NCBI GenBank assembly: GCA_016199935.1
Contig: JACQFS010000018.1
Location: forward strand, 82,785-129,171
Length of the DNA: 46,387 nucleotides
Source: Verrucomicrobiota bacterium
GTDB lineage: Bacteria > Verrucomicrobiota > Verrucomicrobiia > Limisphaerales > JACQFS01
Direction of reading: 5' to 3'
In this document: positions 16,887 to 46,387 of the stretch, in pieces
Numbering within the stretch: the first letter of the stretch is position 1
Layout: every line of letters begins with the position of its first letter
Made by a program: the position numbers and the translations under genes
The notes under the pieces: model-generated
What the model was told of the DNA's origin: nothing
The model's database searches: none
The model's input: the letters and a program-made list of their open reading frames with translations, nothing else

Positions 16887-18925
16887 ATGGGCGACGCCGA
16901 AGCCACTTTTAATCCGCACCATTTCCTCAACCGCGAGTTGAGCTGGCTGGAATTCAACCAGCGCGTCCTCGACGAGGCGCGCGACCCGGCCAATCCCGTC
17001 CTCGAACGCCTCAAGTTCTTCACCATCGTCAGCTCGAACCTCGGCGCCAGCTCGTCGAGGAGCAGTTCGCCTCGTGGCGCGACGAACTCGTTCCGGCACT
17101 CGCCGAGCGCGGCATCCATTTTCCGCGCTTCGAGGAACTCTCCACCGACGACCGCCGGTGGCTGGAAAATTATTTCCGCGCCAACGTCGGCCCCGTCCTC
17201 ACGCCGCTCGCGGTGGACCCGGCGCATCCGTTTCCGCAACTGTTCAACAAATCGCTCAACCTCATCGTGCGCCTGCGCGTCACGGCGGGGCCGCGGCGGC
17301 TCGGCCCCGCGGGCGAACGCCTCGCCGTCGTGCAGGCGCCCGCCATCCTGCCGCGCCTCATCCGCCTGCCGCACGGCGCGCGCCGGCACGACTACCTCCT
17401 GCTCGGCCGGCTCATCAAGCACTACGTCCCCGACCTTTTTCCCGGCGCGGAAATTCTCGGCTCGTGGTTCTTCCGCGTCACGCGCAACAGCGAGCTTTAC
17501 TTCGACGAGGTGGACATCAGCAATCTGCTCAAGGCCGTCGAGCACGAGGTCCACAACCGCCGCAAGGGCCACGCCGTCCGCCTCGAGATCGAGGCCGATT
17601 GCCCGCAGGCGTTCAGCAAAAAACTCCTCGGCGAACTCGGCCTCGACGAGGACGACCTCTACGTCATTGACGGCCCGCTCAACCCCGCGCGCCTCGCCGC
17701 GCTCTGCGACGAGATTCACGAGCCGGAGCTGCGCGACCCGCCGTTCGTCGCGCCCGTCGCGCCCGCGCTGCGCGAGGGCGAGGATATTTTTGCCGTCGTG
17801 CGCGCGGGCGACGTGCTGCTGCACCATCCCTACGACAGCTTCGGGAGCGTGGTGGATTTCCTCCAGCAGGCCGCCGCCGACCCGCAGGTGCTCGCGATCA
17901 AGCAGACCCTCTACCGCACCGGCGGCGATCCGCGCATCGTCGGCGCGCTCATGGAGGCCGTGCGCCGCGGCAAACAGGTCACCGCCGTCGTCGAGCTGAA
18001 AGCGCGCTTCGACGAGGCGAACAACATCGTCTGGGCGCGCAAGCTCGAGGAGGCCGGCGTCCACGTCGTCTATGGCCTCGTCGGCTACAAGATTCATTGC
18101 AAGATGACGCTCGTGGTGCGGCACGAGGCCGGCGCCATCCGCCGCTACCTCCACCTCGGCACCGGCAACTACAATCCCTCCACGGCGAAAATTTACACCG
18201 ACCTCAGCCTGCTCACCGCGCGCGCGGATTTGTGCGAGGACGCCGCGAACCTCTTCAACGTCCTCACCGGCATCTGCCAGTTCCAGGACTCGCGGAAATT
18301 CCTCGTCGCGCCGTTCACGCTGCACGAGCGCATGATGGCCCTCATCGCGCGCGAGGCGGACAACGCCCGGCGCGGCCTGCCCGCGCGCATCATCGCCAAG
18401 ATGAACTCGCTGGTGGACCCGCAGATCATCGGGGCGCTCTACGCGGCGTCGAAGGCGGGGGTGAAGATTGACCTCATCGTGCGCGGCGTGTGCTGCCTGC
18501 GGCCGCGCGTGAAGGGCCTGAGCGAAAACATTTCCGTGCGCAGCATCGTGGGGCGCTTCCTGGAGCACAGCCGCATCTTTTATTTCGAGAACGCCTGCAA
18601 CCCGGAGGTCTTCATCGGCAGCGCGGACTGGATGCCGCGCAATTTCTTCCGGCGCATCGAGGTGGTGTTCCCGGTGGAGGACGGCCGGCTGCGCGAGCGG
18701 ATCATCGCCGAGGTGCTGGCGCTGAACCTGGGGGACAACGTGAAGGCGCGCGTGCTCCAGAGCGACGGCTCGCACGTGCGGCTGGGCGCACCGCGCGACG
18801 GGGCGGCGGTGAACAGCCAGGGTGAGTTCATGCGCCGCGCGCTGGCGCGGGCGGCCGAGGCGGGCGCACCCAAGCCCAAGGGCAAAAGATTTCCCAAGGT
18901 GAAGGTCAGGGCGCGGCCGGGGTGA
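16887..18925 (+). pseudogene. ppk: Polyphosphate kinase 1, disrupted by an internal deletion and frameshift
   Basis: PPK1 makes polyphosphate from ATP. The ATG at 16887 opens a normal N-terminus ([16 protein letters not shown], then SSNL at about residues 49-52). Near 17043-17048 the reading frame changes by two: downstream the PPK sequence continues in the frame that includes [10 protein letters not shown] and runs to 18925. The conserved DEFF segment and roughly 40 residues expected after SSNL are missing, so this looks like an out-of-frame deletion of about 120-130 bp rather than a one-base error. The rest, about 625 codons with the catalytic phospholipase-D-like halves, looks intact. The downstream part could start at GTG 17213 but would lack the N-domain. 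The final 142 bp are duplicated at 19493-19633. Confidence 0.85.
18779..18920 (+). repeat. Direct repeat copy A: 3' end of ppk
   Basis: These 142 bp encode the ppk C-terminus and recur at 19493-19633 with about 95% identity, including a one-base length difference. The 572 bp between the copies carry the toxin-antitoxin pair. Confidence 0.9.
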
Positions 18926-19267: not shown

Positions 19268-19448
19268 GCGGCACCTTCTCCTCCTCGTCCAACGCGCGGA
19301 AGGCGGCGGCTCCGAGGACCGCAAAATCGTCATCCGTCAGGTCGGCGGACATCGGAATGCGCTCGACGATCTGGCGGCGCAACTCGATGCGCTCGGCTGC
19401 GGAGAGATGTTCGACCTCGTCAATGATGTGGGCGACGGCGGCGGTCAT
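19260..19448 (-). CDS. Antitoxin partner of the MazF-like toxin
   Basis: 62 residues, small and acidic, directly upstream of and overlapping the toxin gene. The N-terminal half is predicted helical (VEHLSAAERIELRRQIVERI) and the tail is rich in Asp/Glu, the usual layout of antitoxins that wrap a MazF dimer. It has no clear classical MazE fold, so the family is uncertain. By analogy it would neutralise the toxin and repress the operon. No distinct operator is seen upstream. Confidence 0.7.
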   Translation of the reverse strand: MTAAVAHIIDEVEHLSAAERIELRRQIVERIPMSADLTDDDFAVLGAAAFRALDEEEKVPRA

Positions 19449-19492
19449 GCGGGAACAGTATCGAAAAACGGGAATGCGACAAGTGTGGATTC

Positions 19493-19633
19493 CGGCTGGG
19501 CGCGCCGCGCGACGGGGCGGCGGTGAACAGCCAGGGCGAGTTCATGCGCCGCGCGCTGGCGCGGGCGGCCGAGGCGGGCGCCCCCAAGCCCAAGGGCAAA
19601 CGCTTCCCAAGGTGAAGGTCAGGGCGCGGCCGG
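19493..19633 (+). repeat. Direct repeat copy B: partial ppk 3' end
   Basis: 141-bp near-copy of 18779-18920, lying upstream of the antitoxin gene. Sequence identity starts and stops sharply. The remainder of the 299-bp gap between the antitoxin and lipoprotein genes (19449-19747) holds nothing else I recognise. Confidence 0.9.
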
Positions 19634-19747
19634 CATAGCGACCCAAGCTCAGGGACCCGGTCCGCGAGGGGGCACGCTTGCAACCGGAGCGCGAAGGAGG
19701 ACTCCTCTGTCCACTGACGGCGTCAACGAGCGGGATCAGTCCCTGCC

Positions 19748-20368
19748 TCACTTCTTTTCTTCCGGGTAGAGTTCCTTCTCAAGGTAAGGTGTGCCCCAAA
19801 TCGCGTCTTTATTCGTGACCCCCTTCTCTTTCACTTCACGCATGATGTCCGATATCTCATCCCGCTTCACGGTAATAATAAAACCATCCGTAACGCTGTG
19901 AACAAAATGGAATTCGACCAAATTCCCATCAAGTTTGGGATACACAATACTCGATACTTTCAACAGTTCTGTAAAATCTTCTCCCGCCTGCTTCGACCAT
20001 CTCCACAAAACCTCGTTCGTGATGTCCAGTGGAAGTTCGGGGCCCTTCGCCACAAAAAGACGTGCTTCACTGAACAAGTCGCCATCTCGGTTCCTTTTTC
20101 CAGAAGCCGTATTCGCAACAAAAATGACCTTGTCTTCTATTATGAGCGTCTTCATGCCATACAACGACGGCCAAATCTGCGTCGGCTTTTCTCCTGCCTT
20201 ATGATGCTGCAGAGCGGTTCGCAGGGTCATTGGTGCGCCGATGGAAGTGCGAGTATAATTCAACTCTTCAAAGCCAGCGCCTAAGGGCACAACATCTCTA
20301 CTGCCGCATCCCGCCGCAAAGCAGCAGAACACAATTGCACCCGTTGTCCGCAGCAGATGTTCAGTCAT
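19748..20368 (-). CDS. Putative lipoprotein of unknown function, AT-richer than its neighbours
   Basis: 206 residues from the ATG at 20368, chosen because a lipoprotein signal follows at once (hydrophobic stretch ending in FAAGC). The mature part is mixed alpha/beta without a domain I recognise. Base composition and codon use are visibly less GC-rich than the flanking genes (many AAA, ATT and TTT codons), which suggests recent acquisition. It lies between the ppk duplication and a palindromic element, inside an accessory patch. Function unknown. Confidence 0.65.
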   Translation of the reverse strand: MTEHLLRTTGAIVFCCFAAGCGSRDVVPLGAGFEELNYTRTSIGAPMTLRTALQHHKAGEKPTQIWPSLYGMKTLIIEDKVIFVANTASGKRNRDGDLFSEARLFVAKGPELPLDITNEVLWRWSKQAGEDFTELLKVSSIVYPKLDGNLVEFHFVHSVTDGFIITVKRDEISDIMREVKEKGVTNKDAIWGTPYLEKELYPEEKK

Positions 20369-20458
20369 TTTCAACGCCTGAGTAAAGCAGCGTATCCCGC
20401 TGTTTGAAAGCGTCGAATCCACCGCTTTCCGGTTCCATAAACGCAAACGGGGTCCTTG

Positions 20459-20671: not shown

Positions 20672-20944
20672 TTTAGGAAATCAATTCCTTGCGCAAGGAA
20701 GCCGGCTCCGTAGGCAAGGAATCCCGTTCCGTAGGCAAGGAAGTCCATTCCGTGTGCAAGGAAATCCCTTCCGTGTGCAAGGACGCGCGTTCCGTGCGCA
20801 AGGAATTCGCCGTCGTGAGCACGGAAGCCCGCACCTTGCGCGCGCCGGATGGAATCGTGCGCAGGCCGGACCATTCCGTGTGCAAGGAACGCGCGGGCGT
20901 GCGCTGGGTTTTGGCCGTCGTGCGCAAGGAAGCGGCGAACGTGC
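20672..20944. repeat. 21-bp periodic array 1 (13 imperfect units)
   Basis: Thirteen units of exactly 21 bp without indels. The core is GCAAGGAA, five variable bases, TTCCGTG. Units at 20693-20797 are well conserved; those from about 20798 are more diverged but keep the phase. There are no spacers, so it is not CRISPR. Frames stay open through it on both strands because 21 is a multiple of three. It lies in the 722-bp gene-free stretch 20369-21091. Confidence 0.9.
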
Positions 20945-21005
20945 GCTCCCCTTCGCGTAGCGGAAGCCGGTTGCCGGTATCGCAGGCTGAACCGCCACGA
21001 AATTA

Positions 21006-21041
21006 AAAACGGCATCCCGAGGTCGGGACGCCGTTTTGTTT
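21006..21041. terminator. Strong, probably bidirectional intrinsic terminator
   Basis: 14-bp stem with one mismatch (21006-21019 with 21024-21037, loop AGGT). TTTTGTTT follows on the plus strand and TTTTTAATT on the minus strand. On the minus strand it serves the HNH gene ending at 21092. On the plus strand the only thing before it is the 21-bp array. Confidence 0.85.
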
Positions 21042-21091
21042 GGCGGAGAGCGAGCGGTGCGCCGCCCCAGTCGAAGGCGTGGCCGGCGCGT

Positions 21092-21490
21092 TTAGAAAAG
21101 TCCGAGCTTCCGCAAGCCTTGCCGGAGCTTGAGCCGCTCCTCGGAATTAAACTCAAGGAGCCACGCGGTGGCGCGGCCGGTCGCGGTAGCGCCGCGAATT
21201 CGCAATCCATCCATCGCAAAGTGTCGGCCCCAGGCGTCGCGTCGCGGATTGAAGATGCGCACGACGCGATTCGTGTCGGGGTCCACGCCGGAGAGGTTGG
21301 TGCCCTTGCGCTCGTTGCAGCGGGCACACGCCCACGCGAGATTGTTCAGCGAGTTTGAACCTTGGTGGCGGCGGGCGCGGATGTGTTCCAAGTGAAAGCG
21401 CATCAGGTGCGGCACCAGGTCCGGCAACCGGCAATACTCGCACCGGGCACCGGCCCGCTCGCGAACCGTCAGGCGCAGGGTTGCGCTCAT
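21092..21490 (-). CDS. HNH endonuclease
   Basis: 132 residues. Zinc-ribbon cysteines Cys17/Cys20 and Cys55/Cys58 frame the HNH core (HLEHI with His36, then Asn50 in NSLNNLA and CNERKGTNLSG). HNH enzymes cut DNA or RNA using a histidine-metal centre. The gene starts 4 bp after the small gene upstream on the same strand, forming a tight bicistron, and ends at a strong terminator. I recall similar small-gene plus HNH pairs being widely scattered in bacterial genomes, but their function is not established. Confidence 0.88.
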   Translation of the reverse strand: MSATLRLTVRERAGARCEYCRLPDLVPHLMRFHLEHIRARRHQGSNSLNNLAWACARCNERKGTNLSGVDPDTNRVVRIFNPRRDAWGRHFAMDGLRIRGATATGRATAWLLEFNSEERLKLRQGLRKLGLF

Positions 21491-21770: not shown

Positions 21771-21845
21771 GCGGGCAGGCTAGCGTGTCTCCCGGTTCTC
21801 CGCCACCGCAAATGTCGGCCGCTCGACAATGTGCGGTGCGCCGCC

Positions 21846-22811
21846 TCAGTCGAAGGCGTGACCGGCGCAGCAGAGGACGTTCTTGAGTTTGTGGCGCACG
21901 AGTTCCTTGGTGGCCTTGCGGGCGGGGCCGAGATACTTGCGCGGGTCGAACTCCTTGGGGTTTTCAAAAAAGACTTTGCGGATGGCGGCGGTCATGGCCA
22001 GGCGCAGGTCGGTGTCAATGTTCACCTTGGTGCAGCCGGTGCGGCGCGCGATCTCGATGTCGGCCTCGGGCACGCCGGCGGTGTCCTCGCCCATTTTGCC
22101 GCCATACTTGTTGATCTCGGCCACGATGTCCTTGGGCACGCTGGACGCGCCGTGGAGGACGAGCGGGTAGTCGCCGAGGCCGGCGTCCACGAGGGCCTTC
22201 TTGATGGCCTTGAGGCGCTCGATGTCGAGGTGCTGCTCGCCCTTGAATTTGTAGGCGCCGTGGCTGTTGCCGATGGCGACGGCGAGGGAGTCCACGCCGG
22301 AGGCCTTGACGAAATCCACGGCTTCCTGCGGATGGGTGTAGCAGCCGCCCTTGGAGTAGCCGCCGCCTTCCTCGCCGTCGTCGTGCTGCGCGCCGACGAG
22401 CATGCCGAGTTCGCCCTCGACGACGCAGTTGTGCTTGTGGGCGTATTCCACGACCTTTTTGCAAATCTCGATGTTCTTCTCGAAGGTCTCGTGGGAGGCG
22501 TCAATCATCACGGAGGTGAAGCCCTCGTCAATGCACTCCTTGCACAGCTCGAAGGTGTCGCCGTGGTCGAGGTGGACGGCGATGGGGATGTTGGAGAGGG
22601 AGACGGCGGCCTCGATGAGCTTCTTGAGATAGACGGGGTTGGCGTATTGGCGCGCGCCCTTGGAAATCTGGAGCATGAGGGGAGCCTTCTCCTCCTCGGC
22701 GGCCTCGACGATGGCCTGGATGAACTCCATGTTGTTGACGTTGAAAGCGCCGAGGGCGTATTTGCCCTTGAGGGCTTTGGCGAAGAGTTCGCGGGTGTGG
22801 CTGAGGGGCAT
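21846..22811 (-). CDS. fba: Fructose-bisphosphate aldolase, class II
   Basis: 321 residues. The zinc-binding signature HLDHGD (His80, Asp82, His83) is present, with the later metal/substrate motifs GNSHGAYK and LHGASS, so the enzyme looks active. It cleaves fructose 1,6-bisphosphate to dihydroxyacetone phosphate and glyceraldehyde 3-phosphate in glycolysis, and runs in reverse in gluconeogenesis. AGGA lies at usable spacing before the ATG. A single-gene unit separated from the response-regulator operon by a repeat-rich gap. Confidence 0.95.
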   Translation of the reverse strand: MPLSHTRELFAKALKGKYALGAFNVNNMEFIQAIVEAAEEEKAPLMLQISKGARQYANPVYLKKLIEAAVSLSNIPIAVHLDHGDTFELCKECIDEGFTSVMIDASHETFEKNIEICKKVVEYAHKHNCVVEGELGMLVGAQHDDGEEGGGYSKGGCYTHPQEAVDFVKASGVDSLAVAIGNSHGAYKFKGEQHLDIERLKAIKKALVDAGLGDYPLVLHGASSVPKDIVAEINKYGGKMGEDTAGVPEADIEIARRTGCTKVNIDTDLRLAMTAAIRKVFFENPKEFDPRKYLGPARKATKELVRHKLKNVLCCAGHAFD

Positions 22812-28280: not shown

Positions 28281-28376
28281 GAATGACGAATGACGAATGA
28301 CGAATTGAAAACCTCATCGTCCCTGCCGGCGCGGTGCAACTGGCGAATTCCATTCGTCATTCGTCATTCGTCATTC
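28281..28376. repeat. Heptad-based inverted repeat (ATTCGTC family)
   Basis: Perfect 25-bp arms, 28281-28305 and 28352-28376, each built of three and a half copies of a 7-mer (GAATGAC / ATTCGTC). It starts 5 bp after the proC stop and ends 12 bp before the next start codon on the same strand. Confidence 0.9.
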
Positions 28377-28387
28377 GCCATTTGAAC

Positions 28388-30137: not shown

Positions 30138-30480
30138 AATGTAATAGCTTTTAGTCCGGCATCATCTACTTTTTAAGTCAGTGCGGCAGCTTTTTGACTA
30201 GATGTAATAGCTTTTGGTCTGACAACTGCCGTTGCAGTGGCATAAAAAGGTGTTTCAGTCAGGAAAAAAGCCATTGCAGCGACCGAAGAAGCCGTTGCAG
30301 TCATGGAAAAAGCCGGTTCGGTGTGACAAGGAGCCGTTACAGTATGGCAAGAAGCCGATGCAGCAGGTGGCAAAGGCATTTCAACCATCAAAGGAGTCGT
30401 TTCAGCGGCCAAAGAAGTTGTTTCAAATCATTGGACAGACGTTGCCGTATTGTCTCCGGGGATTTCATTGGCACCGGAGG
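30138..30480. repeat. 21-bp periodic array 2 (about 16 imperfect units)
   Basis: Best units lie between 30232 and 30430: GTTGCAG, about 8 variable bases, then AAGCC, repeating every 21 bp without indels. Left of this (30138-30225) a related phase carries GTAATAGCTTTT at 30140 and 30203. The region is more AT-rich than its surroundings and fills the gap 30098-30519 between the ArsR-like and HAD genes. Its sequence is unrelated to array 1. Confidence 0.8.
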
Positions 30481-34368: not shown

Positions 34369-34424
34369 CGGCGGGGACCATGAACGGAACGCCCGGCGAT
34401 GTCAAAAACCCGAAGTTCGAAATC

Positions 34425-34530
34425 CGAAATCCGAAACAAATCCCACTTTCAAAATCCGAATGCTCCAAACGGCGCGGCCCGCGGATTCAGTCCCTGCCCG
34501 TTCCGTCATTTGAATTTGTTTCGGATTTCG
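34425..34530. repeat. Heptad-based inverted repeat (TCCGAAA family)
   Basis: Perfect 17-bp arms, 34425-34441 and 34514-34530. The left side reads TTCGAAA, TCCGAAA, TCCGAAA, CAAATCC, with further half-copies outside the perfect stem. It lies in the 187-bp gap between the PepSY-type and LysM genes. Confidence 0.85.
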
Positions 34531-34555
34531 AGCTTTGGATTTCGGATTTAATTCT

Positions 34556-41120: not shown

Positions 41121-41242
41121 AGGTTATCAGGTTATCAGGTTATCAGGTTATCAGGTTATCAGGTTGCAGGTGGCTGCGACGTTCCCTGATGTCATTCGGC
41201 ACCTGAAAACTTGAAAACTTGATAACCTGAAAATCTGCAACT
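41121..41242. repeat. Octamer-based inverted repeat (AGGTTATC family)
   Basis: Five exact tandem copies of AGGTTATC (41121-41160) plus a variant, facing TGAAAACT-type 8-mers and TGATAACCT (41203-41241) on the right. Perfect pairing is limited to 9-bp blocks. Between two convergent genes. Confidence 0.8.
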
Positions 41243-46324: not shown

Positions 46325-46387
46325 GGCCCCGGAACCGTTCCCCACGTCGCCGGAACCGTTCCCCACGTCGCCGGAACCGTTCCCCAC
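46325..46387. repeat. 21-bp periodic array 3 (cut by window end)
   Basis: Nearly three units of exactly 21 bp in perfect repeat: CGGAACCGTTCCCC followed by ACGTCGC. It begins about 15 bases after the UDP-glucuronate decarboxylase stop and continues past the window edge. Each unit contains the palindrome GGAACCGTTCC. Confidence 0.9.

Follow-up and report, generated by a model that had tools for sequence, protein, structure and literature searches.

The window analyzed here is a stretch of 46,387 nucleotides (contig C256, positions 82,785-129,171) from a Verrucomicrobiota genome of 5.03 Mb in 260 contigs. Its features of interest, numbered from the first letter of the window, are as follows:

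19748-20446, minus strand: uncharacterized ORF that flanks array 1 on the side away from the operon, with no Pfam match and a coding score that is positive but low
20675-20946, no strand: array 1, 13 tandem 21-bp units with the palindromic consensus CAaGGAag-n-Cc-n-ttcCGTGcG (indel-permitting profile parse, palindromicity p = 0.003, lag identities)
About 21008-21036, minus strand: bidirectional intrinsic terminator of the aldolase/HNH operon, between the operon and array 1 (-24.2 kcal/mol, z -5.9)
21092-21490, minus strand: flanking HNH endonuclease gene (PF01844, E 2.2e-10)
21846-22811, minus strand: class II fructose-bisphosphate aldolase gene of the flanking operon (PF01116, E 4e-99)
30228-30425, no strand: array B, 21-bp units of sequence AAGCCGTTnCAGTnnnnnAAn, unrelated to array 1, with 0 indels
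46327-46387, no strand: array C, perfect 21-bp copies of CCGGAACCGTTCCCCACGTCG
28281-28382, 34406-34549 and 41121-41233: inverted-pair microsatellites

Array 1 and its neighbors

The units of array 1 align when written in steps of 21 bp from position 20,672, and the core that a first-pass annotation had described, GCAAGGAA-N5-TTCCGTG in 13 units of 21 bp, is correct. A cyclic-profile parse in which indels were permitted gave 13.0 units with 76 substitutions (28% from consensus) and 0 indels. The array is identical to itself at a fraction of 0.63, 0.62, 0.59 and 0.61 of positions at lags of 21, 42, 63 and 84, and at 0.25, 0.27 and 0.24 off register, at lags of 20, 22 and 31. Its lag-21 score is 0.72; when the whole 129-kb contig was shuffled 60 times in dinucleotide blocks, the highest score was 0.45. 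About five bases inside the palindrome are conserved, weakly, and the symmetry of conservation about the dyad reaches p = 0.09 in this array. In the whole genome, the core at 0-1 mismatch is essentially confined to array 1.

The terminator hairpin (about 21,008-21,035) is followed on the minus strand by TTTTTAAT and is located immediately beyond the 3' end of the aldolase/HNH operon, which it serves; the claim that it had no other gene to serve was mistaken. Three arrays, namely array 1 and those on contigs C121 and C245, lie directly past the intrinsic terminator of the minus-strand gene to their right. Because the terminators beside arrays belong to these right-hand genes, the main argument for reading array 1 as a transcribed RNA is removed.

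The gene neighborhood of array 1 is not conserved among relatives. The aldolase, with relatives up to 93% identical, places the genome among Limisphaerales/Pedosphaerales-like Verrucomicrobiota MAGs. In the 80 relatives searched there was neither an orthologous array downstream of the aldolase nor a homologue of the flanking HNH gene and ORFs. The window has two copies of the 3' end of the aldolase gene, at 21054-21090 and 21837-21872 (~37 bp, 94% match), and they bracket a cassette composed of a 91-aa ORF and the HNH endonuclease gene, an arrangement that resembles an insertion that regenerated the end of the gene. A partial gene duplication is also present: about 19,560-19,640 (within 19420-19683) repeats the C-terminal end (...PKPKGKRFPKVKVRARP) of the ORF at 17213-18925.

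A genome-wide class with a common pitch

An autocorrelation search for 21-bp arrays, of the kind proposed by the first-pass annotation, found further arrays across the genome, 18 non-coding arrays of this class in all in the 1.75 Mb that were read in stretches. Extrapolation suggests about 50 such arrays in the 5.03-Mb genome; the stretches are not strictly random draws, as a pattern search supplied some of the contig numbers. Each array is composed of 9-20 tandem copies of a short and usually palindromic unit and is 200-420 bp long. The profile parse took in 17 of them; array C, at a contig end, is additional.

The range of periods was narrow. By autocorrelation (lags 5-200, genome stretches), intergenic arrays of period 9-98 bp had a period of 21 or 42 exclusively. 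Tandem Repeats Finder at permissive indel costs gave 21 intergenic arrays with periods of 9-100; the period was 21, 42, 63 or 84 in 17 of them and 43 in one more, a near-42 reading of an array that was parsed at 21 bp. Intergenic matches numbered 15 at lag 21 and 1, 0, 1, 0, 0 and 2 at lags 18, 19, 20, 22, 23 and 24. In three arrays the period is 42 bp and identity at lag 21 is no better, or hardly better, than chance, and the two-turn multiple has therefore been reached independently. A 7-bp sub-period is absent from the 21-bp arrays.

Within the window, array B is extended upstream from about 30,142 by in-phase AGCTTTT units. At array C, one perfect 21-bp repeat contains both the end of contig C256 and the start of contig C257, the assembly having broken there because the array is so regular. 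Homogenization is local: an array at L206:15,464-15,790 has a perfect core and edges that have diverged yet remain in phase. We also observed an array (L190:19589-19915) in which the orientation of the units flips halfway while the 21-bp phase is kept.

Substitutions far outnumber indels. In a scan that is biased to in-phase arrays, and that heavily broken ones would escape, the 17 parsed arrays contained 1,471 substitutions versus 16 indels over 5,154 bp, and 12 of the 17 were free of indels despite unit divergence of 20-40%. The absence of indels reported for array 1 thus holds for that array and for 11 others, whereas five of the 17 carry indels. Ascertainment accounts neither for the excess of unbroken over lightly broken arrays nor for the near absence of hits at lags 19-20 and 22-23. 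The consensus units of most arrays have no detectable relation to one another, apart from a few families (C121 with C112; C140a with C245 and L239; and C133 with C252). Pitch, not sequence, is the property common to these arrays, and the earlier proposal that the period itself is conserved is borne out by its recurrence across the genome in unrelated arrays. That length is constant at 21 (or 42) bp, two (or four) helical turns, while sequence varies by locus suggests that spacing itself matters, most probably to a putative protein that would coat the DNA.

The units are also symmetric. Of the 18 arrays, 13 have a consensus that is palindromic (p ≤ 0.021; combined z 10.3); in the other five, palindromicity at 21 bp was not significant. 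Column conservation mirrors about the dyad as well (combined z 2.8, relative to a null in which the axis is chosen anew each time), most strongly in C252, C151a, L181, L078 and C121. The arrays thus have a period locked to helix turns together with dyad-symmetric sites, as would be characteristic of a helically phased protein array.

Finally, the arrays lie at the 3' ends of genes: seven are in convergent, about nine in tandem and at most one in divergent contexts, as compared with 23 convergent, 74 tandem and 40 divergent among background gaps of 300-1,500 bp, with genes from a home-made caller (p about 0.02-0.04 for the difference). If a protein does occupy the arrays, this placement suggests that the resulting nucleoprotein patch might act as a boundary or organizer between transcription units, or might merely be tolerated there.

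Known repeat systems and related genomes

Like the REP/BIME extragenic palindromes (e.g., the GTAG families, PMC3733652), the arrays are intergenic, short, palindromic, often at 3' ends and tandem, as those elements sometimes are, but no common genome-wide consensus and no GTAG/CGTC tag were seen in them. Their consensus sequences are mostly unrelated, rather than variants of one palindrome with a terminal tag, and they have a strict head-to-tail period of 21/42 bp with 9-20 contiguous units. REP/BIME elements go with RAYT (Y1) transposases, and the source genome has four PF01797 (Y1) matches, whose connection with the arrays would be conjectural. Nor do they resemble CRISPR loci, with their conserved repeats and unique spacers of similar size, as the units of array 1 are contiguous, with those few weakly conserved bases in the palindrome.

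Plasmid replication iterons and partition-site arrays are direct repeats of about two helical turns that are bound on one face of the helix. The present arrays share the two-turn direct repeats, with binding that is putative, but number about 50 per genome and have unrelated sequences. An iteron occupies a single locus beside a rep gene, whereas we found 18 loci in 1.75 Mb; array 1 is flanked by genes for an aldolase and an HNH endonuclease and by an ORF with no Pfam match, and no replication or partition genes were found among the Pfam-annotated neighbors of arrays 1, B and C. Cyanobacterial heptanucleotide STRRs and bacterial VNTRs are likewise intergenic tandem arrays, and 7-bp arrays occur in the source genome and its relatives too, but the 21-bp arrays lack that sub-period and tolerate heavy base change with the period unchanged. 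Eukaryotic satellite DNA of the alphoid type has homogeneous cores and diverged edges, and chromatin geometry, not sequence, seems to determine its period. The present arrays share these traits but are bacterial, have two helix turns per unit and are 200-420 bp long.

Stretches of 80 related species (1.21 Mb) and of five other genomes (0.49 Mb) contained a true 21-bp non-coding array at one locus only, L078. The genome with that locus has at least two more arrays of its family, of which one is perfect and at a contig end. Other lag-21 signals in relatives were mostly coding heptads or 7-bp repeats. The TTGTCCGnnnCGGACAAGG family is also present in genomes G089 (two loci), G044 and G244 and marginally in G086, all from other families of the order, with the arrays in G044, G089 and G244 known by match coordinates alone. 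Viral contigs searched for the TTGTCCG family gave no match. Across 320 genomes of the order there was no strong counterpart of array 1, and matches elsewhere were single and short (~27-54 bp). Our literature search found no account of 21-bp arrays in Verrucomicrobia or of two-turn tandem repeats in this sense.

Shorter repeats are present as well. Arrays of 7 bp are common throughout the order, and 7- and 8-bp microsatellites occur in intergenic gaps as inverted pairs, for example GAATGAC arrays followed ~50-70 bp away by CATTCGT arrays (the three in the window listed above and C151:23152, C27:44027 and L222:5367). One 8-bp array, (GGTTGCGC)n preceded by GCACTATTGCGC, occurs at both C151:20038-20152 (in L190/L209) and C121:19803-19870 (L044), in each case ~100-130 bp or less after a 21-bp array, the two 21-bp arrays being unrelated to each other.

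What might hold the arrays in register

We tentatively favor, at somewhat less than even odds, the view that the arrays are satellite-like and that their dyad-symmetric sites are kept in helical register to suit a candidate dimeric DNA-binding protein. This would join the conserved pitch, the dyad symmetry, the 3'-side location and the local homogenization that we observe. Judging by perfect blocks that have diverged but in-phase units on either side, an array would originate when a palindrome is amplified locally in tandem. Its register would then be maintained because the putative dimer occupies every dyad, one per two turns, on one face of the helix, along which the bound protein may polymerize cooperatively. 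The one-face protein array that the first-pass annotation envisaged for array 1 is to this extent plausible and strengthened: the period fits helix turns and the units are dyad symmetric, as dimeric sites would be, while the binding protein itself stays putative. The main weakness of the protein model is that a single sequence-specific protein cannot account for all of the arrays, as their consensus sequences mostly differ; recognition would therefore have to be largely structural or entail different proteins at different arrays.

A selfish or neutral satellite with no function for the cell is a serious contender, if a somewhat less probable one, and with a mechanistic two-turn ruler it is nearly as good as the protein-array model. 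The arrays would originate and be replaced through slippage, or through hairpin-primed or enzyme-driven amplification, with the ruler built in, and phase would be kept because the arrays are young or are homogenized by exchange between units. Sequences private to each array, freshly homogenized blocks, the avoidance of promoter-side gaps, the scatter of the TTGTCCGnnnCGGACAAGG family across other families of the order and the presence of Y1 transposases (four PF01797 matches in the genome) are all in keeping with this. It is harder to reconcile with 12 arrays that combine 20-40% unit divergence with zero indels and with conservation that is mirror symmetric, and ordinary slippage does not settle on 21/42 time after time in unrelated sequences.

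Much less probable is an RNA of tandem hairpins for 3'-end protection, bidirectional termination or use as a sponge, even though the arrays are at 3' ends and several, on either strand, have more stable folds than their shuffles (z -6 to -11, with -3.7 and -2.7 for the two strands of array 1). Several others fold no better than shuffles, ordinary terminators adjoin arrays 1, C121 and C245, and RNA hairpins have no need of an exact 21-bp pitch. Moreover, compensatory pairs at the palindrome axis revealed no general covariation among the 18 arrays (Stouffer 0.98; array 1, z -1.0), two of which covary (C112, z 2.5; L078, z 2.3), and Rfam gave no match in the window. The transcribed-RNA reading of the first-pass annotation thus finds no support, and dyad-mirrored conservation without compensatory pairs would suit degenerate dimer-binding sites better than hairpins of RNA or DNA. 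The other alternative raised there, a frame of seven residues, fares worse, and decayed or cryptic coding heptads are very improbable. Indeed, 21 bp is seven codons, several frames are open through array 1, and genuine coding heptads produce lag 21 in the source genome and relatives alike. But no array among the 18 had a significant codon-phase difference in conservation, as third-position variability would produce, the frames of array 1 had weak coding scores (≤4.8), its 105-aa frame had no Pfam match, and the units are palindromic. It is the lack of a codon-phase signal and of general base-pair covariation that disfavors the coding and RNA-hairpin readings.

A bolder form of the protein-array model, which we consider unlikely though worth stating, is that the genome has dozens of chromatin-like chromosomal elements that would be recognized by their geometry, with a dyad every two turns of the helix, and not by their sequence, and would be bound between transcription units by a putative polymerizing protein. 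Bacterial intergenic repeats are usually defined by a common sequence; here the definition is by pitch, and sequences that are unrelated converge on 21/42 bp and resist indels. A protein that enforced the pitch would be a sequence-indifferent, phase-reading organizer of the chromosome; if amplification enforces it, the arrays would reveal an enzyme of replication or recombination that has a two-turn ruler.
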